Source of the DNA: Bryum argenteum
Taxonomy: Eukaryota; Streptophyta; Bryopsida; Bryales; Bryaceae
DNA length: 64,000 bases
Assembly: GCA_037043015.1 (NCBI GenBank)
Contig: CM073323.1
Coordinates: forward strand, 15,269,258 to 15,333,257
Reading direction: 5' to 3'
The position numbers and the translations under genes were made by a program. The notes under the pieces were generated by a model. That model made no database searches. It saw nothing but the letters and a program-made list of their open reading frames with translations, and was not told where the DNA came from. Positions 1 through 18,500 of this stretch are shown piece by piece (the first letter of the stretch is position 1; each line of letters starts with the position of its first letter).

Positions 1-736
1 TTGGGCGTTGCGATAAAACGTACCGTTGCTCACGCCCAAGATCTTCATCCATGCAATCGGACATACATCAATACCCTCTAAAGTGACTACATTTCGCCTT
101 TCAGCATTTCTGTGAAACTGCCTATGCACATCGAGTTTGACGTGATTCTTGAACTGCAGAGTTGTCTTGTCGTACATGCGACACCTGAGAACCTTAATCT
201 TCTCCCTTGGGTATAGTTGAACACAGTTGTGCTTACAGCAGGTATTACATGCGACCGCATTGATTGACTCCGCTGTCATCAGAAACTGTGCTTTGCGCGA
301 AACTGGAGTAGACTCATTCCTTGAAGAGTTATCATACGATCGAGTTCGAGATGACCCCTGCCGCCGAGTACGTTCCCGGACCCATCTGTTGTAAACATCT
401 TGCTGACTATGGTCAAAAAGAGAAACACCGTCTAGGAGGACTTGTTGGATGGGCTAGGACTTGAAGGAGTATATCCAGTCGTCTGGATCCTCGACCTCAA
501 CAAACAAAGTTGAAACTTGCACCACAAATCGGGAATCACCGAGTAGGCCGTTACAATCGGGTACAGCGCCAGATCGTAGGTTTCGAAGTAAACCCTCAGC
601 GATTCTGAGACCATCGGAATCAAGCATTGCAACAGTCCTCCCTGTCCAGAGCCGTGGAGGAACAACTTGAGCAGCAAGTAAACCAGGATTCATAGGTGCA
701 TCGCCAAAAGTGTCATCGTCTGAAGAGAAATCCATC
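1..736 (-). CDS. Cys-rich, transposon-derived-type protein, 5' part of gene
   Basis: The leftward frame starts at an ATG at 735-733, one base after a splice-acceptor-like ATTGCAG with a pyrimidine tract upstream, so a leader intron probably lies to its right. The protein begins MDFSSDDDTFGDAP and stays open to the window edge, about 245 codons, except for one in-frame TAG at 456-454. The same frame and style continue on both sides of it, so it is either a nonsense change or an unrecognised intron end. Towards the edge it carries a cysteine cluster (CNTCCKHNCVQ, about 62-75 codons after the TAG), then RCRMYDKTT, KLDVHRQFHR, and VTLEGIDVCPIAW followed by LGVSNGTFYR. That order (Cys cluster, basic stretch, VC-x-x-AW, G-V-S-x-x-T-F-Y-R) recalls the N-terminal part of eukaryotic transposon-derived proteins whose catalytic part would lie outside this window. 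Function is unknown. The palindrome array sits in its probable leader intron. Confidence 0.5.
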
Positions 737-818
737 CTGCAATATGGCCTCACAAGGTTAGAAACTGACGGAAAAAAAACATGGTCACAACTCCAAGACT
801 ATGAGAGACGAACGAGTG

Positions 819-1601
819 CAGTTTAGCTCGACTCGAGCTAAATTTACTAAGAGGATACGAGTCGAGCTAAACTGCATTATGTATTCGATCAATCAGATTA
901 ACTCGATGAGATTTAAACTGATTATCCTAAACCCCTAGCGAGAAAGACCGACTCGAGCGAGAAGAAGAGATCTTGTCCCGCTATTGATTAGCTCAACACA
1001 AAGTAAACATTTTTACGAGATTTATGCTTACAGTTTAGCTCAACTCGAGCTAAACAGTCCGACAAGATGCATACAGCAGTTTAGCTCGACTCGAGCTAAA
1101 CTGCAGATACGAATGAATATTATAGTTCAGCTTTAGTCGAGCTGAACTGCAAGAACAAGAATGCAATACAGTTTAGCTCGACTCGAGCTAAATTGTAAGC
1201 GCGCACGTTCCTGCACTTTAGCTCGACTCAAGCTAAACTGTATTCGACCAATTTCCTGCAGTTTAGCTCGACTCGAGCTAAACTGCAAATATATTCATTC
1301 ATGCAGTTTAGCTCGAGTCGAGCTAAACTGTAATCGTGCACGTTCTTGCAGTTTAGCTCGACTCGAGCTAAACTGCATGAGTGAATATATTTGCAGTTTA
1401 GCTCGACTCGAGCTAAACTGCAGGAAATTGGTCGAATACAGTTTAGCTCGAGTCGAGTTAAACTGCATGAACATGTATGCAAGACAGTTTAGCTCGACTA
1501 GAGCTAAACTGCAGAAATTGGCACGCATACGGTTAAGCACGAGTCGAGCTATGCTGCTGATGTATACATCTATACAGTTTAGCTCGATTCGAGCTAAACT
1601 G
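819..1601. repeat. Array of 27-nt palindromes at 45-bp period
   Basis: The repeat is CAGTTTAGCTCGA, one central C or G, then the mirrored arm. Near-complete copies start at 1031, 1077, 1123 (variant), 1169, 1214, 1259, 1304, 1349, 1394, 1439, 1485, 1530 (degenerate) and 1575; looser ones are at 819 and 860. From 1169 to 1439 the period is exactly 45 bp. Spacers are 18-19 nt. The spacer at 1241-1258 (TATTCGACCAATTTCCTG) is the exact reverse complement of that at 1421-1438, and 1286-1303 mirrors 1376-1393 with one mismatch. Block 1214-1330 therefore pairs with 1349-1465 as a ~117-bp stem around an 18-nt loop. Since 45 divides by 3, both strands have open frames (CSLARLELNC-like repeats), a by-product of the symmetry. 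Confidence 0.93.
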
Positions 1602-2300
1602 CAGGGCAAAGTACCATAGATGTCCCGAAAATTCCGGCGGATTTCACGGGATGTTTATGCAATTCAAAATTCCGTTACAACCAGCGCTCTCCCATTCTAT
1701 CGTCACACGCAGGAATCAAAATATACTCTTGTACCAACGTAATCGTCAAATCAAAGTAATATGTCAACAACAACGACTCCGAATGCACAATGCTGAAGTA
1801 CAAGTCATTAGAATACAATCATTAAATTGGAATTGTCAAGTACTACTACTAAAGATCAGGAGAAAACTATGAAGAATAATGAATCTAACAATGCGAGAAG
1901 CTGTGCAAAGCAAAATTAACGACAAACAATCATGCATAAATGCAATCGAGGAACACGTACGCGAAGGTAGAGGGCGAGTTGAAGGAAGCACAGAGAACTC
2001 AAATACGTCGAGGGAGTTCAGAAAACTGAGAGATTGAGAAAAGAATCATTCCGTCCCGGATTTCGAAGGTCATTGCGTAGCGCAATGCCGTTTTCGCGGT
2101 AACCCAGAAATAGGAAATGGGAGGGAATTGACTTTTTAAAAATTGAAAATTGGCGGGAACTGAAGTCTTGACAGATGAAGTGTCAACAGTGAATAATGGG
2201 CGGGAAGAAACGGGCCGCCATTTGAAAATTGGCGGGATTGGGGTTATAGGGTTTAGGGTTTCTATTATAGGTGTGTGATAATTGTTATTGGCAAAGAAAT
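1602..2300 (-). promoter_or_regulatory. Probable promoter and leader of the leftward gene
   Basis: On the minus strand, 2045-1900 is CT-rich like a plant 5' leader. Upstream are three GGCGGGA boxes: TTGGCGGGAAC at 2150-2160, ATGGGCGGGAAG at 2196-2207 and TTGGCGGGA at 2229-2237. They resemble plant E2F sites, which would suggest S-phase-linked expression; that is inference. No convincing coding frame is present. Confidence 0.35.
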
Positions 2301-5300
2301 GTTAATCTTTATACAACGTATTGTGAGGAATACTATGTTAGCAAACACTCAATGACACAATAAAATTTTAGTATAATTACTTATAAGCAATACAATGGAT
2401 ACAACTTTCAATTTCATATTATGTGAATCGAGTATTCTTAACCTTAAAGCTTTATTTCTAAATAAAGTTCCTATACAATGAATTCGATGCAATATTTACC
2501 TTAAGGTGAAGTATGACATATTTAACTAAATAAGTAAATATGGACAGTCCACGATCTACAATTAAGAACAATACGCAAAATGATTTCTATATTTTGGATT
2601 CATGAAGATGCTCTTCAAATATGTAGATTCTAAGGTAATGGATGGAGGGATCTCGCTATGTTTTAAAGTCCATAATAAGCCCAAAGTCCATATTTAATGG
2701 AATGATGTATAATTCTTAGTAAGTATTAAGCTAATGTATATCTTATCTATAAGTTTAATACAACTAACGTTTTTGTGTATATGCTCTTGCTAACAATTCT
2801 TAATTGAATGTTTATTATTAAACACTTTTGATTAATTCTATCATATGCAATATCTCGTTAAAAATGCACGAGTAAACATAACTTTTATTAAATATTGTTT
2901 ACTTCTTCGTATAAACATAATATATTTGATAATTATATATAATTTAATATAGTAAATGATATTTATTACATACTATATTATATAGTATTTATCTATAAAT
3001 GAAAAATATAATATTCGAATTGTAAATTCATACAATGTAAAATAATATAATCTTAGTATATTATGTTAAGTATGAAATTGATTCAACTATAAACTGTACC
3101 GATGAAATCAAATATTTTAACTTCACATTTTAAATCAAATCTTCAAGGTTATCAACGATAAAAAATTTATACTATTTCAAAAATAAGTTCGTAAATCTTG
3201 TTGAATACACTTTGGTATATTTAATGAAAGAAGTTTTAATATACATAAAATTTTATATTTAAACTTAAATTCCTTGTATAGATGCTCAATGGTATATATG
3301 TCATTTAATTCTTTTTAACATAAATCTTACCAAAATAAGATTACTTTTGAATGATTTAATTTCATTTGTAGATGTTTAGCCTTACAATTGGATTATGTAT
3401 TGAAATGTTCAAAATCATTTGCAAATATGGACATCTTTTCGATAGAAAAATGCATTTATCAAATACATTCAATACATTCATTAAGTTTTAAATTTGAAAT
3501 TCAATTTTGTAAATTTGAGTAACTATCAAATTATAAATTACGTATCTTCTCTGTCAAATTTTAATTGGATCCTTGCTGATCGTCCAAGAAATGAAGATTT
3601 CAACATATAGCTAGATTAGATTTTGGGATGTTTCCATCCAAGCGCTCCTTACTTAAAGACATTCGCACGAGATAAACTAACCATCATGCAGTGCTCCGCC
3701 TCTGTTTCGAAAGTTAGACATCCTTAAACGAAAGAGTGGTATTTTAAGATTGGTGTTGACGTTGTATGTCACTACCGTTGACCTATCCTACACATTCAAT
3801 CAAGGTTGTCACTAGAAAGCTATAATAAAGGTGCACGGCGTCTTATCGTCTAGCAGTTGGTACTCCGCATCTTCATGGAGAGTTGAATTTCACTGAGTCC
3901 ATGTTGGAGACAGCAGTGCAGCCATTTTATTTTTATAATTAGTATTACTTATATTACGACGTTATATTAGATTTAAACTTTCATTCTTGAAAATTAAATA
4001 ATTAAATAAACATCTGAGTATTTAAAAATGTCTATGTGTGAGAAATTGAAAGTATTCTATGCTAATGTCTTAAATTATGTGACCTTGTGAAATCATAAGA
4101 ATAAGATTTATAGAAACCAATTACATAAATGAATTTTTTTAGTAGTGGGTCTTCTTAAGCTTAAACGTAAGCTTAGAACACGTAATTCGTTATAATGGGA
4201 ATATTCATATTATCAAATTGATGAAAAGTGAGCAGGAGTTGAGCCAAATGTATTTTGTGGGTACATTTAGCTGGACCCAAACTAAAGTCACACTAATTTT
4301 CTCAAAATCAATGAATAATATAATTATTATGAATTATGTGTTTTAATCGGATTGAGTATATTTCATCATATATTGTTTTCGTTGCAATAATGATTGTGAG
4401 TCATAAACATATGAAACTCTGTACGATTTATTATGATGTATTCCACGCAATATAATATAATTTATATTTATTTTATGTATTGTACTTAATCTTCGATATT
4501 TTATTTTTTAAAACATGTTCGTACTTAAAATTAAGGATTGTAAAAATTATTTACGTATATTGAATTTATACTTTTGAAATTATTTGTTGAAACTATACTT
4601 TTAAAAGAATAAGCTTTTCTATAAGACTATTTTACAGTACTCAGTTTACAATAAAACATTATGCATTAATAACCCCACACTGCAATGTACATTTATATTT
4701 ATCTATACTGTCTTAAAATATAATATATAAAAAAGCAGCATTAAGTAAAATTTATTTATAATTTTACAAGCATGATATCAATCATCTTTCTTAGCAATTG
4801 TATCACGTCAAGAGTTGTGTAGTTTTTAAATCTTGCATCACTTATAGTCATGCGTGGCCATTGAAAACCTAGGAACAGGAATATCAAATCATTATTGCTA
4901 ATCTACCCATGTACTCAACACTCTATTGCCAAATTCAACTGTTTTGAATGCCGCTTGTAATGTAGAAAAGACTCAGCCTCATTGTGAGCCTTCCGGCCTT
5001 AGCAATGCCTTCAAAACGTAGTGTATTCTACGTTTTAGCCGCAGAGCTTCATACTGCGACGAATTGGCTTGATGTAGAGTAAGTACTAACTTTTTTTTCG
5101 AATTGTGTAGCTATGGTATCGACTTTCTTGAGTTTCAAATCAGGGCAAGCAACGTCCGACGCAACATCCTTTGAAGTCTTGATTGCGAATACAAAAATCG
5201 GTGGATTGATTATTAAATTCGAAACGAATGAATTCGAATTTGCACTTCTTCGAACATTCAATTTCTTTACATAATTAATTATATTTATGAATATCTTATT

Positions 5301-6266
5301 CTCAAATTTTGAAATCTAAAATAATATTCAAAGTATTAATGCAGATATTAATTTTTTTGTCACATACTCTATTTATAGAAGTATCGAATATTAATAATAT
5401 TATATTTCATAATAGTCTATATATAAATTAATGTATTTTACCTTAACAGTATTCAATATCAGCTTATTTTCAATGAACAAGTGTAGAACATATGTATTAA
5501 TAATTTATTCGTAATCTTCTTTCAAGTAATCTATTATATAAAAGTGTATTTAATAATGTCATAAACCTACATATAGTATTTTCAAAGCAGCATATTTATT
5601 AGAATCCCTATTTATTAGTTTTTTGATGTCAATAAATATATTAATTGAATGTTCCAAATAATGTATTTATTAACGTACTATTTTCAAACACTATATTCAT
5701 AAAATCATATATTGCATCAAGTATCGGTTCAATATATAGTTATATTAATATATTTAGTAAAAGTATTAGTCAATAATCCCTTATTTCAATTTAGATTCAT
5801 TAATATGTTTATTAACAGTTATCTTTCAAAATACTATATTTATAGGATACAATATCTTATGCTAATCAATTTATAATAATAATGAATATTTATTTATCTA
5901 TTACATTAACATATTTATGAAAAGTCTATGGAATATCCATTGGTTCACAAATGAAATGTCTATTAAATAATCTCTTCATTAATACTTCTATAATCCAAAA
6001 AAAAAATTATGAAAGATATTGTTTATTAACGACTAATACCAAAATAACTTATGTATTAAAAACTTATATTCTTTATTTATTTTATTTTTTTCAAATTATT
6101 ATTATTTATTTATTTTTTTGACATATAGAATAGGTATTGATACATGATGAACATTTAGATTTCTTATTATTTGTCAAAATCATGTGTATAAACTTAGCGA
6201 ATGGACTTGGAAATACCCATCATCAGGAAATAGTACATACTTTAGAAGAAGGAGAAATTAATATGT
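2301..6266. other. AT-rich intergenic DNA, no gene seen
   Basis: Very AT-rich sequence without a convincing coding frame. A small perfect hairpin (AAAACGTAG, 6-nt loop, CTACGTTTT) lies at 5013-5036. A weak tRNA-Glu-like string near 3835-3910 was considered and rejected. Nothing else could be recognised. Confidence 0.6.
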
Positions 6267-6455
6267 ATGAGACAATTCATGGTAAAAATACAGTATACTC
6301 GTTTTACTCTGATGATCAAAAAATTAGACATCCATTACAAAGTGAAGAGCCTCATTGAGTGCAAGGTCACTGACCTTGACCACGTAAAAGAGAAGAAAGT
6401 CATAGCAAAGTGCAGAACCTTCAAGGAGAATTATTTTAACTCCAAAATGGGATCT
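6267..6455 (+). pseudogene. Fragment related to the ParB-like gene
   Basis: The frame at 6267-6473 contains IQYTRFTL, then CKVTDLDHVKEKKVIAKC and RTFKEN. These match IPYTAFLTL, SKITDIDHESEKEVIATC and TTFKEN in the second exon of the ParB-like gene (about 9440-9590), in the same order and spacing. The nucleotide match is clearest at 6362-6434. The rest of the gene is absent and the surroundings are AT-rich, so this is a truncated, probably non-functional paralogue piece. The adjoining frame 6137-6358 was not recognised. Confidence 0.6.
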
Positions 6456-6864
6456 CCTGCATGCATACAGTAGGGGATAAAACCTAAAAATGACACACTT
6501 TTTGTTTCCAAATCATAGGGAACAATGTACTCTCTAAATTTTGTGTTTAAAACTAAGAATTTAGATTACTAAATTTAGTCACAATTTAGTGCAAAACTTC
6601 AATTAATAACCTAAACATTTACTTAGTCAAAATTTGGACAAAACTTGAACACAAACATAGACTAATATTAGTCAAAGCTAAGCCAAGAATTAGTGAAAGA
6701 ATTACTCAAAACATAAGTTAAACGGAAACATTATTATATCAAATAAACAATAGTGTAAAATTAAATTAATTTAAAAAAAGGAAAAGAAAAAAATAAAATA
6801 TTTAAAAAAAAATTTAAAAAACATTAAAAAAACATTTAAAAAAATTTAAAAAAAGAAAAGCGGC

Positions 6865-8686
6865 TGATGATGGGACCCCGACGTCCCACCACCGCCGACA
6901 TTTCAGCGGGGCCCATCCATCCACTCATTGCCTACGAATCATCCCCCACTACCCCCCCCCCACTCCGCGCATTTGCTCCCACTTACGTACTCGCTCTGCG
7001 TTTTCCACCTTTCCGCTGTGTTTGTCGTTTTCTCTTGCGCTGTGTTAGTTTTTGCTCGTGCGCCCTCGTTTTGCGCGTATTTTCTCTGGTTTTTGGGTTC
7101 TGTGCGTTTTGTCGTTTAGCGCTACAGATTGTTTTGCTTTTGGCGCCAAGTTTTTTTGAGTTTCTGCGGAGAGCGGATAGCAGCAAGGAGGAGGGTTTTT
7201 TTTCATCGAGCGGCATTGTTTCTGCGGAGGAGGTGCTACGGAGGAGGAGACTGCGCGTTTCGTGGAGGAGACTGCGCATTTGCGGAGGAGGAGACTGCGC
7301 ATTTGCAGAGGAGGAGACTGCGCATTTGCGGAGGAGGAGACTGCGCGTTTCGTGGAGGAGACTGCGCATTTGCGGAGGAGGAGACTGGAGCTTCGTTTCG
7401 TTTCGGCGGAGGTGGAGGTCCTGCTGCAGGGTGATCGAAGCGAGTGAGGTATTGCTTCCAATTTTATTTTTCTTTAGAAGAACTCGATGTTGTTGTTTAG
7501 TTGTGCGCCCCATCTCTCTGCTTTGGCTGGGAAGAACGGTCGTCATCCCCTCCATCCTTATCAACCCTAACTGCTTGAGACGTCTGAAATGGTTTCGCAG
7601 CATGTGTGTTTAAAAGTAGTGCATCATTCTGTGTTTTTGTGAATCGGTGTGTCTGAGCACACACTCCCTTGGTTGCGTCCTTGATTGGGGGAACTTTCTG
7701 TTCTTTCAGTACTGTAAAATTTGTAAAACCCTAATTGCGTCTTCTCTTTTTTGAATTTCATAGCAATGCCCCTTTTGACCATTTGTAATCAGGTTTGCTT
7801 GGATGAACACGTTCATGGGTACAATAGATCCCTCGTTTCAGTTGGATTGTTTGTTAAAGACCTGTAGCGACCCTATGTGGATTGTTGAATTGAAGTCAAC
7901 TTGGAATTTGCAGTCAATGTGTTTAGCTGTGGCTTGAAAATCAGGATTTAGTGCTTTTCGGGAATCGATGTGCACCGACAGTGTGGAACTTGTATTGGAA
8001 ATGCTTGTAGTTATTTTTTGTGCATTCATTCGTCGACACTGGAAATTCTCATAGCTAATTTCAACCCTGAAATCTAGCAAGTTTATAGTACATGAAATCT
8101 ATCTAGGTCCTTTATTCGCTTATTCACATTCTGTATATGAAGTAAAGCTTGACCTCTAATGCGAATGGCGAATCTGAGGTGCAGATACACTTGTGGGAGA
8201 TAGATTTGCTGAAGATCGGGTTCAAGATTCAACTTCTTCGAAATTGGAGATAGTCGTATTTGAAGAAGAATATCGAGGTAAGCTGACACAAAGTTGGTCT
8301 TGTTATGCTTTTGTGTATTCAGCCAGGACTTGTTATGCTTTTGTGTATTTTGTATTCTCGCTTGCACTGTTGCATTGTTCATAGCACTTCCATTCAAAAC
8401 TAAATGCTGATGCTATGGCTTGTAACTTATAAATGTTTTAGTTTCACGTCAGGTGCAGGATGTAATGCTGGATTGCTTAGTATTGTTAAAAGAAAGCTTG
8501 CTTCCACTTCCACCAAAGTATTCAATAGCCTCTGATTCAAACTACATATGTATTTACTAAACTCCGAATCATACACAACAGACGCTCACAAACAGACCTC
8601 CCCAATCCATAACCATCACATTCTTGTGCAGGTAAAGCACAATCGAAGTGCATCACAGAAGTCCTTCGCCGGTATATACAAGAAAA
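6865..8686 (+). promoter_or_regulatory. Promoter and spliced leader region of the ParB-like gene
   Basis: GC jumps at 6860 after long A-rich DNA. A C-rich block (6940-6965) is followed by a CT-rich stretch typical of plant leaders (6965-7130). A plausible leader intron runs from donor GAG|GTAAGC at 8277/8278 to acceptor TTGTGCAG at 8631, giving the short exon 8632-8697 that holds the start codon. The region has open frames on both strands through the minisatellite, but none looks like protein. The transcription start is not determined. Confidence 0.4.
7227..7390. repeat. GGAGGAGACTGCGC minisatellite
   Basis: About seven tandem units of roughly 20-23 bp built on GGAGGAGACTGCGCATTTG, with some carrying GCGTTTCGT instead. 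It lies in the leader region of the ParB-like gene and explains the long but low-complexity open frames there. Confidence 0.85.
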
Positions 8687-11600
8687 ATGGCCGACAGGTG
8701 ATCATCATCAACAGCAATTGTATTTAAGTCCTCAATTAAAAATGTAGTTCAACTCTAGAATACATAGAATCTGCTACAGTTTAGCTCGACTCGAGCTAAA
8801 CTGCAGTTGTCAGTGGTATCTACAGTTTAGCTCGACTCGAGCTAAACTGTAGAGGCTACGGTAGTTAAAAAATGAAGGATTGAGTCAACCTAAACCGTTG
8901 CCCCCCTATACAATTATAATGACAGCAAATAAAGGATTACGGGAAACCATAAAAAATGTTAAAATGTAACTAAAATACAAGTCCAAAAGCTAAAGCAACC
9001 TATAAAGCAACTACAGTTAATCAAAAGCAACTACAGTTAATCAAAAGCAACTACAGTTTAGCTCGACTCGAGCTAAACTGTCGCCAAAGTACACACCACA
9101 AAGCACCTTAGACGTCTTTAGTACATAAAGAGAAGTCACGAAAATGACTAGAAGCATGTACCATAGGTCGACAAAGATCTAAACAGTTTAGCTCGACTCG
9201 AGCTAAACTGCATGTACTAGGATGTAAGAAATACTCTACATTGGAACTAGAACCTATAGAATGAACTAACTCAAACACTGTATCCACAGTCAAGAGAAGG
9301 CACGAGTTCAAGAGGCGCTCCAGCACTTCTTCAAACTTAGGCCGCTGGACGTTGACGAAGACGATGGAGACGACACGAAGCAGTTGGACTGCTGGGAGTT
9401 CAAAGACCCATCGAAAGTGCTTTCATGGTCTGCCAGGTGGATCCCATACACAGCGTTCCTCACCCTTGTCGTCACATACGAAGGAGACGTCGAAGATCCC
9501 ATGTGCGTTGACATTGACTCGAAGATCACTGACATCGACCACGAATCAGAGAAAGAAGTCATAGCGACGTGTACAACCTTCAAGGAGAATGACAAGGAGT
9601 TTGCCTACAACTACGCCATACTCATTGATATCAAGCAGACTGGTTTCGACTTGGGGCAGTTGGTGGAGAGCTTAGAGGCGTCCAGTTTCGACGACATAAA
9701 AACAACACTGAAACAGGATATGCTTACTAAAGCATGGCAGACCAAACAAGGGGGAGCTCTCAAGGCCAAGCAGCTTGCAATAAAACTGCGATCTGTAGTC
9801 TCGGCTTTGACTCACGCTGACATGGCGGCGAAGACAATACACCTCAAAGGAAAAGCTCCACTAGAGGGCTCTGGGCTGACTGCAACTGGGAGCGGCGTAC
9901 AGAGCATGACTCCATCTCGCCCACAACGTGCGTCAAGACCGGCCCCTACAATTACAACGACTTCTGACTCACCCGTACAGAGGAGAGAAGCTCCTGTGAA
10001 GAAGTCTGCAGAGGCAAAGAAGAAAAAGAGCATGCTCATCCCTGAAGAGGATGCTTTGACGGCTTTGAACGATGCTATACAATGCATCCCAAAGAACGTC
10101 AATACCGTGGAGGAAATTGACTTCGAGAACGTCAACCTCATCTATCAGAAGTTCTTCACGGACTGTCAGGACTGCTTCGTCTTCCCTAAACCTGACACGA
10201 AAATGGAGATAGACACCATGAAGATGATCGAGTCCCCTCCACAATGGACGATTCGGGCATTCGAGAAGAGGGGAAAGACGGACTTGATGAACTTCCTCAT
10301 AAATATGCCCGACAGGTCGCAAAAGCAAACGCTCTGTGTAATGCCTAAATTGGATGTCAAACCAAACGGCATTGAGGATATGCAGGACTGCGAGTTCTGG
10401 ATAATCAACGGCCAGCACAGTGTTGCCGCCTCAAAGCAGATGTTTGAGTCCAAAGTCCCAGAAACCATTCGTAAGGACTTTCGGGTGTGGTCTGCTTTCG
10501 TAGTGTGGACGAAGGATGAAGCCAAGCTGCGCAAAATATCGGCTTTCTACAACAGAGTGAACCATTTCACACCGTTTAAGCCGACATGGGCATCGAATAT
10601 CCTTGCCGCCCGCACCGTCTGGGAAAACTACGGGCGCCCAGCCAACAGACATGCAGCAGCTGGGGTAGCAGACAAACGAGTTCAGGCGAAGCGAGTGCTG
10701 TCACAATTCGCAAATTTCGACGTAAGTATTACCTCATGCCGCATGTCATTTCTACCTTCTTCACATGCAATTAACTTACTGTACATGCAGTTTAGCTCGA
10801 GTCGAGCTAAACTGTAAATGCAGTTTAGCTCGACTCGAGCTAAACTGCCACTGCAGTTTCAAGAAGCCTGAAATACCTGCATCTGTATTGCAGACGCGCA
10901 CATGAAATCTGAATTCTTACATACCTCTGTGGCATTGCAGAAATTCGTTGACTCTATTCGGCATAGGTTCGCCATGATCGATGTTGCCAAGGCCCAAGTA
11001 GAGATGAAGAACAAGGTCTTGTCTCTAACAAATGAGCTAAAGATCATCACCTTCCCCGATGATCTATGGAACCTATGGGCAGAGTTGATCGGAAGTGTCG
11101 CGCAGGGAACCCTTATCGACCCCTACTCCTTGAGGCAGCTCTGTGACAAGCCAGGGTTTAAACCAGATAACGACCAAACCCTCTCAAGGGAATTTTTCAA
11201 AAACCTCGGTAACCTTTCAGAGTCGGACCACAGGAAACTGTGTACCCATATGCTCAATCAGTCAGGTCCTTCGCGGAAGCTGGAATACCCGAAGGTGACT
11301 TTAAAACAACCAGCAACCCTTCTTGAAGATTGCTACTCCGTCAAGGAGTATGTTGAGAGGTTGAAGCGAAAGGCGACCGCCCAGCTTCAGATCCACAAGA
11401 TCAGACCTCAACTCGGAATCTTCAAGAACAACGAGTTCGACGTGGAAGCGTGGAAGAAGTTTAAGACGGACTACCACGTCACGAAGGCTTCCAAGCGCGC
11501 ACACGGAATGGGAATCACGACAAATATTATGCGGACCAGAGGCAGACCCAACACAGGAATACCAGCTGCGAGGATCTCTCTCCGTACGCAAAAAGATTCT

Positions 11601-13348
11601 TCGAAGTTTTCTTGGAGAAGCGCGAGAAGTTCGTCGGCCCTACGGGTAGTGTAATTTTCCGATCCTTCCACCGCAGAACACCACAGAGGCTTGGCGAATG
11701 GCCTGATGACAAATGGCCGGCGGTTGCTCCTGAAATGAACGTTGGAATCATCGATTTCAGATTGATTCCAGGAAGTGGTAGCACCTCCTCAGATTCCTCG
11801 CCAGAACACCCTTTCTTCGAAATGTTCATGACGATATTATCGTCTCAGAACAAGCCAGCTCTCAAAGATGTACCTTGCTGGTTCTTCATTTGCGGGGACG
11901 ACAATGATTACCTGCAAGTCGAGGCATTTGCGAAAAATCCTGCCTACTTCCAAGGGGCAAAATATAAGCTGATTCCTTCGATGTACTATCCATCCCCGCA
12001 CGAACGGATAGCTGGATTTAATGCGAAAGCCAAGCAGGCCTCGCAGCCCGTTCGTCTTCTTTTCATGATCAGGGAAGACATCAAACTTGCGAGATTGCCA
12101 GAGACCGAGTATCGGGCTCCGAAGCACGCGCTTTACGAGAAGCCACGGAAGTACAACGAGTCTCGGTATCACATGTACCCAATCGAGTTGAGGATGGATT
12201 TTTACTTGCAGGTCATCCAGCTATTTTGCCAGGAGCACGAAAATATTTTTCTTGTCTACGCCGGCGGAAAAGCAGTCTGCGCAAGCGTGGTATGCTTCTT
12301 TACATGTAACATACTCAATTACGCTTATTTGTTTCCCTACAGTTTAGCTCGAGTCGAGCTAAACTGCAATACAATATAAGTGCCGTGCAGTTTAGCTCGA
12401 GTCGAGCTAAACTGCAATACAGTTTAGCTCGACACGACACTTATTTTGTATTGCACTTTAGCTCGAGTCGAGCTAAACTGTCTTGTCCAACTTAAGCTTT
12501 ATTTGTAGTCTAAGTCGCTCATTTTTTTGTAGATGTTGTCTCTCGATGCCTACTCCATATTCGATGCCGAAGACAAAGAGGACATCGACCAAGCATACAA
12601 CGATGGGCTTACTCTTGATCCCACTGACTTCTCCGTGACCGGCTATTTCGTCGACAAAGTCGAATATCCGGAGGTTGGGGCCATGCTCTTGAAGGGCAAG
12701 CGCAAAGCTGTTGCGTCTCTGGATGACGAGGCTTTTGACGATGAGGCGGATGCCCCTGACCGGGAGGACTCTGGATCAAGTGGAAGGCAACTTCACGGCG
12801 AAGGCAGCACTTACAGCCTCGGTTCCGGTGGAGACGACGAAGAGCATGACATGGATATCGACACAACCCCTCGGACACCGCAGGAGTCGCGTACCGCTCC
12901 TGGGCGAGGAGGCGGCAGAGGGAGTGCAAAGCGGAAACGTAATCCCCTGTCGAGGGACTCACCCTCAAGTAGGTTCAAGGCCGAGGAGAGTGTTGAATTG
13001 GCAGCACTACAGCGCAAGGTTGAGAAGGAGATGGCACACCGGAAAGAGTTGGAAGAGCTCCTTAAACAGCAGAATATTGAGCAGCGAGAACGCGAAAAGA
13101 GGGAACAGGAACGCCATGACAGGTTGATGGAGATGATGGAGAGTTTAACTGCCGGCCACGCATTAACTTTGGTTCGGGCAATGGCAGCCACTCCTGCTAC
13201 ACAGGCTATACCCACTTCACTGCAACCACTCATGTCCCTGCCGCCTCCAACTACCGAGCCTCCTGCACCTGCGCCTTCCTCTCCTATGCCTGACACTCGA
13301 CCTGTGGGTGACGAAGAAGAAGAAACTCCAGGTCCTCCTTCAACTTAG
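8687..13348 (+). CDS. ParB/DGQHR-like nuclear protein, four exons
   Basis: Exons: 8687-8697, 9290-10721, 10941-12289, 12533-13348. The start AAAAATGGCC has good plant context; splicing gives MADSQEKARVQEALQHFF. All three introns are GT-AG and frame-consistent. The ~1,200-residue product has an N-terminal domain (residues 35-150), a basic, Pro/Ser-rich linker, then FWIINGQHSVAASK (G378-S381), followed by KLRKISAFYNRVNHF. That pattern resembles the ParB-N/DGQHR fold, with Ser where Arg is usual. The C-terminus has an acidic stretch, a basic nuclear-signal-like GSAKRKRNP, a Glu/Arg-rich coiled coil and a Pro-rich acidic tail ending GPPST. One frame change falls at about 11.49-11.57 kb in exon 3; it could be an indel, a sequence error or a missed intron. 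The function is unknown; DNA binding or nucleotide handling is inference. All introns carry the palindrome. Confidence 0.65.
8777..9210. repeat. Four palindromes in intron 1 of the ParB-like gene
   Basis: Perfect 27-nt copies lie at 8777-8803, 8823-8849, 9054-9080 and 9184-9210. The first two are 46 bp apart, the same period as the large array. The copy at 9054 follows about two and a half tandem units of AGCAACTACAGTTAATCAAA (from 9006), whose ACAGTT run matches the start of the palindrome arm. Confidence 0.93.
10788..10847. repeat. Two palindromes in intron 2 of the ParB-like gene
   Basis: Perfect 27-nt copies at 10788-10814 (central G) and 10821-10847 (central C), separated by only 6 nt, inside intron 10722-10940. 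Confidence 0.93.
12340..12480. repeat. Palindrome cluster in intron 3 of the ParB-like gene
   Basis: Copies at 12340-12366, 12388-12414 and 12454-12480 plus a half copy from 12420. The spacer containing GCAATACAATATAAGTG (12366-12382) recurs inverted as CACTTATTTTGTATTGC (12438-12454), so the cluster is itself a larger inverted repeat inside intron 12290-12532. Confidence 0.9.
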
Positions 13349-13463
13349 ATTTTGGATCCAGTGTAAAGTATTTAAGCTGTAAATGCCGGAACACATATAC
13401 ATGTGAAATTTTGTATCAAACTCAGACATTTTTTTGTAATTAATACAGGCCTTTACTATTTTG

Positions 13464-13490
13464 CAGTTTAGCTCGACTCGAGCTAAACTG
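13464..13490. repeat. Rightmost palindrome copy
   Basis: A perfect 27-nt copy lies after the ParB-like stop and before the acceptor (TGCCAG, 13566-13571) of the FCP1-like locus. It is therefore in the 3' region of one gene or an intron of the next. No copy was seen to its right in the window. Confidence 0.93.
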
Positions 13491-13571
13491 TTGCCCTTCA
13501 TCCTGGCTCTCATATTCTATTTCCTTCATCTTACTGTCTCCTGATTCCATGAATTTGTATTGCGCTGCCAG

Positions 13572-14717
13572 ATGTTAATTTGGATGACGAAGCAATCGAT
13601 GTTCCAGTCATGGATGATGTCACGCTTGAATGTTACCTCCATGAGCAGGTTACACCGGTGGAGGACCCACTTAAAATGCATGATGTCTCACATACTGAGA
13701 ACGTTGTTGCTATCCGTGATGAGATAGATTGCACTGAGCAATCACTCGGGTCAATGGGTCTTCAAGTTGACTTAGAAGAGATCAATTATGATAATCAGGT
13801 ATTTTCTGTTCCACAAACACTGCTCTCACCCATGCCATCGTTGCGATGTGTTTGATGTTTCTGACCTTGAATTCATCGCACCAGTGACGAAAGCTCCCCA
13901 GTAATTTTGTCGTGGTGCGCCGTTTTCATTTCAGGTCAACGAAGCATCGGTCAATGATTTAATTTCTAGAGAAGACATAGGTCGGGTTCCAAGCAAATCC
14001 TCCGGTACTTGGTTAAATGTTGTTCTCGACCTCAATGGTATCCTCTGCAGTTGTTCCCCATTTTGGGAAGCTAAAGGATACAGAAATCGTGCCTTCCGTA
14101 TTCACTCGGCCACGTTGCCAACCGAGGTGGGGAAGAAGCTTGTATGGGTGAGGCCCAACTGTAAGGACTTCCTCTCTCTCGGGTGGCATCGTTTGCTACC
14201 ATCACGGTTTGGAGTTCGATGATGAGAACCACCACAGAAGCCATTTGTGATTTTCTCTTCGGTCCAATTAACCCTATAAGGCCACTACGAATTCTTGGTC
14301 AAGAAGACTGTGACATGATTCCGTTGAAATCTGGTGGGAGCCGGCCATTGTTCATGAAGGAACCGGGAACTCAAAAGTCTATCTTCCTTAAGACCTTGTC
14401 AGCTCATCTCTTCAACGACTTTTAATGGTTTTTATTCAGAGGCAAATACGCTCATCATAGATGATAGTCCGGTTAAGCACGTGCTTAATCAACGGGAAAA
14501 TGTTCTTTTACTACCATCTTGGTCTCACAAGGACAATAGGGCACACGAAGATTCTATTTTTTTAGATGAGGTTTTGCCGTATCTGTTAGAGCTCCATGAG
14601 TTTGACGGTTCCCTTAGCAAGTTTAGGTCATCGTTACCATTTGGACGTGCCATGATATATTATGATCGTGCATCATTAGATCTGTATAATGATATACAAA
14701 AAGCATTAATAGAATGA
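13572..14717 (+). pseudogene. FCP1-like (HAD family) phosphatase, decayed
   Basis: An acidic exon (13572-13798, ending YDNQ at a GTATTT donor) is followed by acceptor TTTCAG and an exon from 13935. The second exon carries VVLDLNGILCSC (HAD motif I, with Asn where FCP1 enzymes have the second Asp), KKLVWVRPNCKDF, then ATITVWSSMM, LGQEDCDM, FLKTLSAHLFNDF, and NTLIIDDSPVKH (HAD motif III), ending DLYNDIQKALIE. This is the FCP1/NLI-interacting-factor fold, which removes phosphate from Ser, as on the RNA polymerase II tail. The domain is split over three frames: shifts fall near 14165-14190 and at an extra T near 14421-14424. No 5' exon with a start codon was found. With the Asp-to-Asn change this looks like a dead copy. 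Confidence 0.7.
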
Positions 14718-14829
14718 AAAATTAGTTTACATTCTATGAAATACATTGTAGGACTTTTCATTGCATGAGCTTTATGTACTTTGGATAAGTGATGATTTGT
14801 TTGGAAAATTGTTGAAATAGATTACGCAG

Positions 14830-15580
14830 GGTGATTGTCGTGCTTCTGTGGATTCTTTGATGAATGCTGCGGATTTTGGGCCTTCACTTCGGAGTAGAGG
14901 ACGATTATTGGAGTCAGCTGAAACGGCTCAATCTACCATGGATTTTTCGACAATGGCAGTAGAAGATGGAGTAGTTAACAGCCCTGTCACTATGTGATCA
15001 CCTCCAAAGGTGTTGCAATCGGCTTCCCCCGTGTCGCCTCCAACAATAAATCATATTGGTTCTCTTCAAATTACAATCATGTACTCCTACAAAGCGTATG
15101 TTATACGACATGGACGTGGATGTTTCTGAAGAAGATTTTGTGAAGGTTTGTTCCGAAGTCTGCATTTAATGCGTTTGAGTCTAGTGTTTGCAAGAACGAA
15201 TAACTATTTGTAGATCTCCTTTATGCACTGTAATAGGTTACACAATACTTAGACATTTTACTCATATGCTACATATTGCATGTATGTATCTATTCGCTCG
15301 TTCACTTATAAGAAATGCCATTGTTTTATTTGTTCAGAATCGTGTTTTGGAGAGTCCAAATGCATGTCCTTCGAAGTCTACGGAACACGGAGCAATCAAG
15401 CCTTTGTCAGAAATCCGTCGCCACTCGCTACCGAAGTCAAGCATTGAGGACCGGCGTCGCGAAAGACTGCAACGCCTTCTTGATAGTCCATTGATGCAAG
15501 ACAATGATTCTATTTGGACACGTCGGCGTCAACGAGCATTCATCCAATCTCGTATTGTCGCTTATGGTGGGACTCCGTAG
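14830..15580 (+). pseudogene. Ser/Pro-rich tail exons downstream of FCP1-like domain
   Basis: After acceptor TTACGCAG (14829) the frame reads GDCRASVDSLMNAADFGPSL and on to VVNSPVTM, then a TGA, then SPPKVLQSASPVSPPT. A further frame gives CTPTKRMLYDMDVDVSEED and a donor at 15145/15146. The last exon (acceptor 15337, exon 15338-15580) encodes NRVLESPNACPSKSTEHG and ends SRIVAYGGTP. Together these look like the Ser/Pro-rich tail of the FCP1-like gene, with its own interruptions. They could instead be a separate small gene. Confidence 0.4.
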
Positions 15581-18500
15581 TAGTTACATCTTTTAACTAC
15601 AGAAGTAATTATGTACAGATTTGATAGTCATCACTCTTACATGACATATTCTGTGAATCAGGATTGATATTTACACGTGAATAAATGGAATATTCTTTTA
15701 TTCCCATCCTGTTTCTATTGTACATATTAAAGCTATGTCTCTTTTTACATAATTTCATACCTTGTTTAATGCATGATCTAGTACTTTATACTTAACATTG
15801 ATAGATATTTTAAATGATTCTCTACTCTGAAAACTCCCAAAGTCCTGCATATTTCCCAATATAACGAATATGGGGTTGAAAGTAGGGAAGTGGTTCCTTG
15901 TTTCTTTGCAAATGGTTTTTTTATCTTCAAAGCATAGCTTTTGCTTCTTATAACAAGGAGGAATCTATTTTTCCAACATTAACCCCTATGCGCGTCAAAT
16001 GTAGAGAACAATATTATGGATGGCGAGCTACAAGTTTGGAAGTTTTTTTTAAAAAAGTTGCACATGGGCGCGGAGCCTATGGCAAGTAGCAGCTAGCAGG
16101 TGAGTTTTTTTGGGTTATTTTTGCATTAAGTGGAAAGGTGCGTTTGCAAGGTCAAACAAGAGACCGAATCATGCATGAGTCTTGGGGGCACTAAAGCCCT
16201 CCTCGCCCACCATCCTTTGCCGCTATGGTTGTCATATTGGACAGATTACTATTCATTTCATGTCCTACAGGACGAGTTTCCATTTATCAAATGTACCTTT
16301 CAAGTACATGTGATGAATAGTAACTTGTCCTGTAGAACATGAAATGAATAGTAATCTGTCTGATATGACAACCAAGACTGCCCCAAACGTGGAATTCAAT
16401 CATCTTGGTTAACAATCCAAAACTTCTAAGAGCCATAGTTTCTCCATCTTATGTCTATTTTTGACAAAATTTGTTGTGTGGGCTCCAATGAAGTCTAAAT
16501 TTTTGGTAAAAGCCTCAATTCAGATTAATCAAATTTATAGCATGCATTCTTGTGTTGGTGCCAAATACTCAAGATTGTTCTTGAAATATTGGGCATGTTC
16601 CACTTTTCCAAGCCTATTTTTTTATCAAAAATTTATTTTTCATGAGTTTTTTCTTACATAAGTTTGTTTTATAGATGAATTTCAAATACTTTCTAATTAG
16701 AAGTTTTTGGTTTGAAACAATTAAGTAGTAGATCCCAAATGATGTATCTATATTGAAAAAACAAAAAATCTACATTGTCCTTGAGGAGTTAGATCTACTT
16801 CATCTAACGTTAAAAGTCAAGGTTATTTGTTGGAATCAAATTAAAGTCTTGTTTCTTTGGTAGACAACTTGGTGTTATGAAAGACAACTTGGTGTTATCA
16901 AAGATTTGGGATAGGATATTCATTTGTGCAAAACCCTTAGTTTTGGACACTTTGTCCATTGTATATTTGGGGCAATTTTCACAAATGCAAGCACTTGTAG
17001 AAAAATAGGTCCTCGAAGACTCAATCTCAATAACTAAAAGCGTCCTAAAATAAACTAGCAAAGATTATTATGTGAGCGAGGAAAATATTTGATGAATTTG
17101 TTGGAACAAGAATGAAGGTGTACAACTATCTAAGTGGAGATTTTTACCGTACATTGTGTGTTAGTTGCATTGTCAAAGTAAAATTGATGCATATTCAAAA
17201 TCTATTTTGAGTAAAAATATTTCATGATTCCACAATATATAAAGCCTTATGACCCAAAGTTTTTTTCCAAAGACCTACGAAAATTTTACTACAAGTTTCA
17301 ACGATTGAGATCTAAATAGCTCTTCTTCATTTTGTATATGACACTTAAAAGAAATTTGTGTTTTTGGGCTAACAATCATCAGGACATAAGGAATCAAAGA
17401 AACCTCTCTTTGTCAATGGAGTGTCATTCAATCTTCAGAGGAGACAATTACAATTTGTGTATGAATTTGCGAGTGATCATTATCTGCAAAGAGGCTGCAT
17501 GATTCCAACTCATGTTGTATTTGCTGAAGGAAGAGGTAGTGGATTTCAACTCGTCCACCCCTTCGAGCTTGTTGCTCTTTTCCTCATACTCCTTGAGGCA
17601 TTGTGCAATATTTAAGTGTTTGGTTTTGTTATGTTGAGTTGTTATTTTTTCCTATATTGTATATTGAATATGATTTACCGTAGCTCTTACTCTATGTGTA
17701 CAATAAATTTCTAATTCAATGTTCCTAGTTGGATACCTATTGTTCACTTTTGCCTCATTTGGATATTTCAATCGGAGGCCATAAGATCAATGTTGAAATG
17801 TTGTCCTCTCTCCCCTCTAAAGGGATTAAGGGACACTCATACAACCAGGTCCATGAACTCCACCAAATCTACGGGGGCTAAGGTGGAAAGCACCATGAAA
17901 CGGAACCTCCATCCTCCTCATTGAAGGCCATGACCTGCAATTACCAAACCACCACAAATGATGCCAAACTCTTAATGATCTCATATTTATAATTTCAACA
18001 AAAAAAATCTAAAAAGCTCAAAATTCAAATAACACAAGGAGGATTTTAGACTGCTTCTATGATCTACTAAATTTGACAAGGTACCGATGAAACACTTTTC
18101 GCATAGAATTTATTCCTTAGAATAATCAAACTTCAATCATAGATTCTCTATCAGAACATTTTTTTAATGTAAAAACCACAACACTTTGTTTCCATGCTGC
18201 AGATAGTGTTAATTTCTTGTTTTAATTCTATATCTTATTTTTACCATCTCAATGAGATTCTTAAAAACTAACCAACTATTTATTCAAATTCTACCAAATG
18301 AGTAGTTGCTAATGCTTTATCCGTTCTTCATTCAAATTTAATGCATGCTTGAATTAACTTTTCGCGATGACTTACGTTAGATTCAACTCGTTAATTACAT
18401 TATTCACAAATTTGAACATATGATTTGTATCAAGAAATCTTGTTTGTAATCCATGCTACTACAATCATTATCTAATGTATATGTAGATTTATGGTATTAT

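Follow-up and report, generated by a model that had tools for sequence, protein, structure and literature searches.

What is the role of a 27-nt palindrome that is repeated in the introns of one gene cluster in the moss Bryum argenteum? The question is raised by a stretch of 64 kb from this genome (GenBank assembly GCA_037043015.1, contig CM073323.1, positions 15,269,258 to 15,333,257), which is called the window here. A preliminary description of the window counted about 25 copies of the palindrome at 819-13490 and none in the rest, and offered a binding site for a dimeric protein, an intronic micro-hairpin mobile element, or a splicing or RNA-processing signal as explanations. The gene cluster that it flagged is a DNA transposon of 18.5 kb. 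In the copies and relatives sampled, the palindromes belong to this element family and fill its non-coding slots. It is probable, from the pattern of sequence conservation, that the palindrome is a selected site for a dimeric protein. There is about an even chance that the palindromes are cis-acting sites of this large moss transposon which, when bound by a dimer, would keep the element's genes expressed.

The Palindrome and its Transposon

The palindrome, CAGTTTAGCTCGASTCGAGCTAAACTG (27 nt), was found at 22 sites in the whole window when three or fewer mismatches were allowed, all at 819-13490. With up to six mismatches there were 24 sites, and half copies are present besides the full ones (e.g., at 858-875 and about 12420), in agreement with the earlier count. 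At three or fewer mismatches, the mean number in 100 dinucleotide shuffles of the window was 0.00, and a chance origin was rejected on this ground. Twelve sites lie in the inferred leader intron of a gene with a DUF7869 product, which is the largest cluster, as had been noted. Four, two and three lie in the introns of a divergent gene that is referred to here as ParB-like, the same counts as those first reported, with a half copy in the third intron. The remaining site stands before a phosphatase gene. In all, 21 of the 22 sites are within inferred introns and, as described previously, none is in a coding exon as inferred. The introns were placed from GT..AG sites, reading frame and homologues, and are known from DNA sequence alone. 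No site was found at 1602-8776, about 7 kb of non-coding DNA between the two divergent leaders. Part of the leader array, at 1204-1475, is a large inverted repeat itself, with 130-nt arms that are 94% complementary and 12 nt between them. It looks as if it had been inverted through recombination between palindromes.

The cluster sits in a DNA transposon copy of 18,490 bases (C3:15266645-15285134), the left 2613 bases of which fall outside the window (in locus L039, 7388-10000). Long stretches are shared between the window and two other palindrome clusters. For each end 40 copies were scored, one of them being the window. At the right end, the 39 others all stop at query positions 1178-1187, with an additional, inverted piece that ends at 1096. 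At the left end, 36 of the 39 others begin at query positions 1379-1389, and two of the three remaining copies have a separate piece that begins there. Both ends were examined in 11 copies, namely the window and the ten with both ends listed. All 11 have a 25-bp terminal inverted repeat at both ends, AACCCCATATTCGTTATATTKGGAA, with few differences at most, so that the element reads AACCCC...GGGGTT. All 11 are also flanked by perfect 4-bp target duplications that differ in sequence (GAAA, AATA, AATA, AATC, CATA, CTGG, GTAT, GTGC, TTAA, CTAT, and TTGG). The two features by which a DNA transposon of this type is recognized, terminal inverted repeats and a target duplication of fixed length, are both present.

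The element contains three genes: one for a DUF7869 protein, the ParB-like one, and one for a NIF-type phosphatase. It is likely, judging from the sequence, that the first acts as a transposase, because DUF7869 is accompanied by inverted ends and fixed target duplications. With a DNA transposon as host and a transposase-like gene in it, the palindromes could be sites that the transposase binds during excision, as it does the subterminal repeats of CACTA or Ac elements. The mixed base at the centre of the palindrome (C at 240 sites and G at 176 in the window lineage) would suit such a role. However, the window copy has no palindrome within 3.4 kb of its left end or 2.3 kb of its right end, the inverted ends contain no palindrome half, and the placement of the palindromes follows gene structure in distant relatives. 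Such positions do not suggest that the palindromes act at the ends, and a function in transposition is considered unlikely.

Palindromes across the Genome

In the whole genome (258.8 Mb), 4766 palindrome places were found, and a reversed control returned none. The palindrome is therefore confined to one gene cluster inside the window, as was stated at first, but not in the genome. Perfect 21-nt cores number 4929 with C or G at the centre and 949 with A or T. The first 30 places fetched, which form six clusters on contig C1, were inspected. Twenty-three are in DNA or beside exons resembling the window's element, five adjoin a DUF7869 gene that is merely 48-54% identical, and two are in long arrays with no recognized gene within 3 kb. 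Recognizable element sequence thus adjoins 28 of these 30 places on C1, and a free-standing mobile hairpin was rejected. What moves is the 18.5-kb transposon bearing the palindromes, rather than the intronic micro-hairpin that had been suggested.

Two arrays, L032:250-2189 and L035:17-1958, are similarly arranged, with 24 palindromes in about 2 kb each. The L032 array mixes A/T and C/G centres, unlike the window lineage. In the listed part of C1, A/T-centred cores gather at few places.

The main exon of the ParB-like gene and 1.5 kb on either side were explored at four or fewer mismatches in the best 30 of 90 matching copies, among them that of the window. There are 342 sites around this exon and none inside it. 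In intron 2, the distance from where the exon match ends to the start of the first site is 59-69 nt in 29 of the 30 copies (92 nt in L064). The array before the main exon differs widely in length between close copies, with 4 sites in L043 and 13 in L044, and the spacing in ten loci is mostly 46, 33, or 52 bp. Variable arrays of this kind, together with an excess of two-arm changes at four arm positions that is given below, could be produced by a tandem repeat that hitch-hikes without function, with slippage and inversion multiplying the palindromes where coding constraint is absent. An unselected repeat is not expected to hold its core and its slots where protein identity has fallen to 32-48%. 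Moreover, the adjacent 7-kb non-coding stretch has no sites, and the palindrome sequence is lost in decayed copies. A hitch-hiking origin appears doubtful.

Conservation in Distant Relatives

Two types of the palindrome, T and C, were distinguished. In the prokaryote collection, a single contig, L093, contains the exact T-type 23-mer. The viral contigs, which were scanned for this T-type sequence only, do not contain it and were rejected as its carriers. L093 is filed, as are L100 and L101, under the cyanobacterial metagenome-assembled genome (MAG) AVDCRST_MAG81; all three are evidently of plant origin. L093 encodes a relative of the DUF7869 protein that is 963 aa long, and palindromes lie directly upstream of this gene. 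L100 and L101 carry the second, ParB-like gene, and L100 also has the phosphatase gene. Their proteins are 32-48% identical to those of the window. In L101 palindromes precede exon 1 and follow exons 1, 3, and 4, which matches the window. In L100 they follow exons 1 and 3 and precede the phosphatase gene, with one beyond the phosphatase gene; the part of this contig that was examined does not reach the region before exon 1. None of the 19 sites (one or no mismatch) in the three contigs is in a coding part, the coding limits having been set by ourselves.

The arms in L100 and L101 have changed jointly, from TTTAG..CTAAA to TTCAG..CTGAA and also to ATCAG..CTGAT. In 16 sites the outer base pair is linked between the arms (Fisher p=0.036). 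Such a palindrome is read into by 26 of 105 protein relatives and by none of the reversed sequences, with patterns that were composed after the alignment had been seen and with P0028, P0036, P0042, and P0043 representing the same contigs. A tree was built from 42 main-exon proteins, 26 of them unlabelled. In it, a single branch separates the 10 T-type proteins from the 6 of C-type. This branch has a support of 100/100, and none of 500 shuffles gave a value as low. As far as sampled, the slot and the core of the palindrome are kept across deep divergence and the arms have changed together.

Within the home genome, the same core is also present in the distant lineage whose DUF7869 proteins are 48-54% identical. 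This could be explained if a host silencer or transcription factor recognized the palindrome, with the element exploiting or suffering from it. The palindrome type tracks the protein clade of the element, which speaks for a partner within the element but is also expected from linkage, and a silencing target should be lost and not kept in copies with open frames. Recognition from the host side is thus regarded as improbable.

The proteins and contigs that are filed under uncultured cyanobacterial MAGs (AVDCRST_MAG81 and MAG94; L093, L100, L101, P0036, and P0042) carry moss-type, intron-bearing transposon genes. These bins look contaminated because they hold such genes.

Substitution Patterns and Constraint

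The third base of the core was compared between the arms of otherwise perfect sites in the home genome. It is changed in one arm in 123 sites (66 + 57) and in both arms in 1, about as independence predicts. Routine copying from arm to arm was therefore rejected as the source of the symmetry that is found between lineages.

The preliminary description also considered a splicing or RNA-processing signal, and a hairpin in the intron or leader RNA could possibly affect splicing, export, or small-RNA production. The intronic position of 21 of the 22 window sites, the empty 7 kb between the divergent leaders, and the constant start of the first intron-2 site all fit such a signal. An RNA stem would tolerate G-U pairs, yet C>T and G>A changes number 68 and 69 and T>C and A>G changes 32 and 27, with no bias, in sites that were mostly oriented along the second gene. 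The centre of a loop should be free to vary, yet it is C or G in 416 of 426 sites of the window lineage (a sister lineage differs). The element's sites also have one sequence in common, which goes beyond a mere stem. No Rfam match at the gathering threshold and no tRNA were found at 1-16500 of the window, so a known structured RNA or tRNA was rejected as the identity of the palindrome. The location of the sites stands as it was described, and the RNA-level signal itself is unlikely. The missing wobble bias and the C/G centre, neither of which an RNA stem would lead one to expect, favour a DNA site for a dimer.

Palindromes are better preserved in copies with an open main exon. The median palindrome mismatch is 0.0215 in 12 copies with an open main exon and 0.053 in 18 copies with stops (one-sided p=0.015). 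It appears that the palindrome persists in working elements and disappears from those that no longer work.

Possible Function of the Palindromes

Of the three explanations first offered, a site bound by a dimeric protein has the strongest support, because the same slots are filled in distant relatives, the arms have changed jointly, and wobble bias is missing. It is a predicted site, and we consider it rather likely that it has been selected as such. Each arm would be a half-site, read twice by a homodimeric DNA-binding protein. The binder would most likely be encoded by the element, and the multi-exon ParB-like gene would be the first candidate. Dense arrays would give targeting that is specific to the element, and their length could change by tandem duplication. 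Less surely, binding of the arrays by the dimer may keep the element's own genes expressed, either by countering silencing or by activating transcription. We would put this further step to anti-silencing or activation at roughly even odds.

Several observations weigh against a dimer site that serves expression. The co-segregation of protein clade and palindrome type is also expected from linkage alone. The proteins of the element have no known DNA-binding domain above the cut-off. A pure DNA signal against silencing does not require 1602-8776 to be free of sites. The C/G centre is not general, since 949 perfect cores have an A/T centre and such centres are present in a sister lineage. Among the 426 sampled sites, changes in both arms are commoner at arm positions 1-3 than independence predicts (13, 17, and 26 vs. 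3.2, 2.5, and 6.8 expected). At position 6, the third base of the core, there are 3 two-arm changes, 2 of them complementary, against 0.25 expected. The sites are related, so these counts are not independent. The excess shows that some copying of changed sites occurs, and it may stem from a few events that were copied or from several events. Lastly, in four decayed copies of the same layout the palindrome columns vary more than the spacer columns (40/251 vs. 67/753). The eight recent copies in this comparison were chosen partly for low palindrome mismatch, and the comparison of open and stop-bearing copies is free of that choice. Since its columns vary more than the spacers in these decayed copies, the palindrome is not mutationally cold, and this explanation of its conservation was rejected.

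A more specific form of the dimer model seems improbable. In it, a dimer encoded by the element, possibly with a ParB/Srx fold, would load at the palindromes of all introns and leaders, spread over the element, and keep it unsilenced, with protein and palindrome coevolving as lineage-specific pairs. If true, it would be a form of anti-silencing that arose independently of VANC and that worked in a nucleate-and-spread mode like that of parS.

Comparison with Known Systems

In CACTA/Spm and Ac/Ds, subterminal repeats are bound by the transposase. As in these elements, many short copies of one motif are found here in a plant DNA transposon. The moss sites are unlike those repeats in that they are internal, intronic, and kilobases from the ends, and they do not cluster near both ends. 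The ParB-parS system also has palindromic sites, clustered in or beside a gene with a ParB/Srx-like motif (INGQHSVAAS in the moss element). However, parS sites are shorter than the moss palindrome, and the moss protein has no ParB profile support and is part of a eukaryotic transposon. Mutator-like transposons, the VANDAL elements among them, make target duplications of 9-11 bp. The moss element makes duplications of 4 bp and has a DUF7869 gene instead.

To our knowledge, it is mainly for VANDAL elements that the ways in which a plant transposon protects its expression have been described in sequence-specific detail. VANDAL21 of Arabidopsis has motif arrays upstream of VANA21 as well as within introns of both VANC21 and VANB21, and VANC21 binds these arrays, with loss of methylation (PMC5735166). 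By the same account, VANDAL21 and VANDAL6 resemble the moss element in having a short motif that is specific to the transposon, tandem arrays of changing length, and a mainly non-coding location. Introns of accessory genes likewise contain arrays, as does the region upstream of the transposase gene, and the motif differs between sister families (PMC5735166). The motif itself is unlike, a palindrome of 21-27 nt in the moss and 9 bases arrayed in one orientation in the VANDALs, as described there (PMC5735166). The moss element also differs in its 4-bp duplications, its DUF7869 gene, and slots that persist between deeply diverged relatives. A VANC-like protein was not identified in it, and no search aimed at VANC homology was made.

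Sola DNA transposons, according to one account, have 4-bp target duplications and terminal inverted repeats of at least 11 bp, can exceed 15 kb, and are present in Physcomitrella (PMC10741241). The moss element fits Sola in its 4-bp duplications and its size, the comparison being by that description only (PMC10741241). No published description of the palindrome motif was found in the open-licence literature searched.

The moss family would thus provide an independent case, with a defined motif and the products of three genes as candidate binders. Thousands of perfect 21-nt palindromes are placed in constant gene slots, with matched arms that are specific to the lineage, and both the binder and the question of silencing can be put to a direct test. 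The palindrome can also serve as a ready tag for annotating such elements, including their relatives in bacterial metagenome bins.

Genes of the Transposon

The features of the element within the window are given in Table 1.

Table 1. Features of the palindrome-bearing transposon, in window positions.
Feature	Position	Strand	Basis
Part of the transposon within the window	1..15877		Sharp ends in other copies
DUF7869 (transposase-like) gene, 5' part, continuing into L039	1..736	-	963-aa L093 homologue ORF (open reading frame) aligns over 1-738 and the L039 part
Inferred DUF7869 leader intron; acceptor AG 738-737, donor near 1960 tentative	737..1960	-	Splice context
Palindrome array; 12 sites (≤3 mismatches; 14 at ≤6), spacing mostly 45-46 bp	819..1601
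ParB-like gene, inferred start exon (ATG)	8687..8697	+	Frame, splice context
ParB-like gene, intron 1; palindromes at 8777, 8823, 9054, 9184	8698..9289	+	Splice context
ParB-like gene, main exon, palindrome-free	9290..10721	+	90 genomic matches listed; 41 homologues
ParB-like gene, intron 2; palindromes at 10788, 10821	10722..10940	+	Splice context
ParB-like gene, third exon region, frame interrupted in window copy	10941..12289	+	tblastn; 64 homologues to L101 counterpart
ParB-like gene, intron 3; palindromes at 12340, 12388, 12454 and a half at about 12420	12290..12532	+
ParB-like gene, last exon, palindrome-free	12533..13348	+	ORF; similarity to other copies
Single palindrome separating ParB-like and phosphatase genes; slot also filled in L100 and L101	13464..13490
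NIF/FCP1-type phosphatase-like gene, several exons	13572..15580	+	Pfam NIF
Right terminal inverted repeat AACCCCATATTCGTTATATTGGGAA, then target duplication GAAA	15853..15877	-

The minus-strand gene matches Pfam DUF7869 on its L039 part (E=1.5e-36), and its reading frame is interrupted in several places in the window copy. Annotated relatives of its protein are present in Ceratodon purpureus and Physcomitrium patens. No paper on DUF7869 was found in the open-licence literature searched. Pfam NIF was matched at 2.4e-14 in the L100 homologue of the phosphatase, and at 0.026 and 0.00082, below the cut-off, in two pieces of the window.

The multi-exon gene has no recognized domain. The ParB-like label that it was given at first is backed by the single motif INGQHSVAAS and one weak match. 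Pfam ParB was matched by none of 21 relatives of the protein, NCBIfam DGQHR was matched weakly in 1 of the 21 (E=0.0085), and an hhalign profile comparison of the exon with three bacterial ParB proteins gave a probability of 0.1 of 100. Thus, the label is unproven. Of the 64 relatives of the third exon region, one is from Physcomitrium patens. Sequence searches of PDB with the element's proteins gave no match other than one chain at E=0.081, which is not meaningful. A hint of HTH_Tnp_Mu_2, below the threshold (0.086), was found in L101.

There are two further features upstream of the ParB-like gene. A GC-rich tandem repeat, GGAGGAGGAGACTGCGCATTTGC, is located at 7239-7387. Between the two leaders, the 79 nt at 6353-6431 match positions 9512-9590 of the ParB-like exon with 81% identity and are probably a stray piece of this exon.

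Elements in the home genome are concentrated on one chromosome-size contig. Contig C1 makes up 44.1 of the 258.8 Mb. Of the 90 listed matches to the exon of the ParB-like gene, for which 88 of 982 candidates were scored, 72 are on this contig. One relative of the DUF7869 protein in Ceratodon purpureus, KC19_VG296900, is on the V chromosome, judged by its name. A sex chromosome is one possibility for C1, and some other chromosome rich in repeats is another. DUF7869 genes are abundant in the home genome, with 1812 candidates at first look, of which 150 were scored, on contigs C1 to C11. Other DUF7869 lineages may have motifs of their own.

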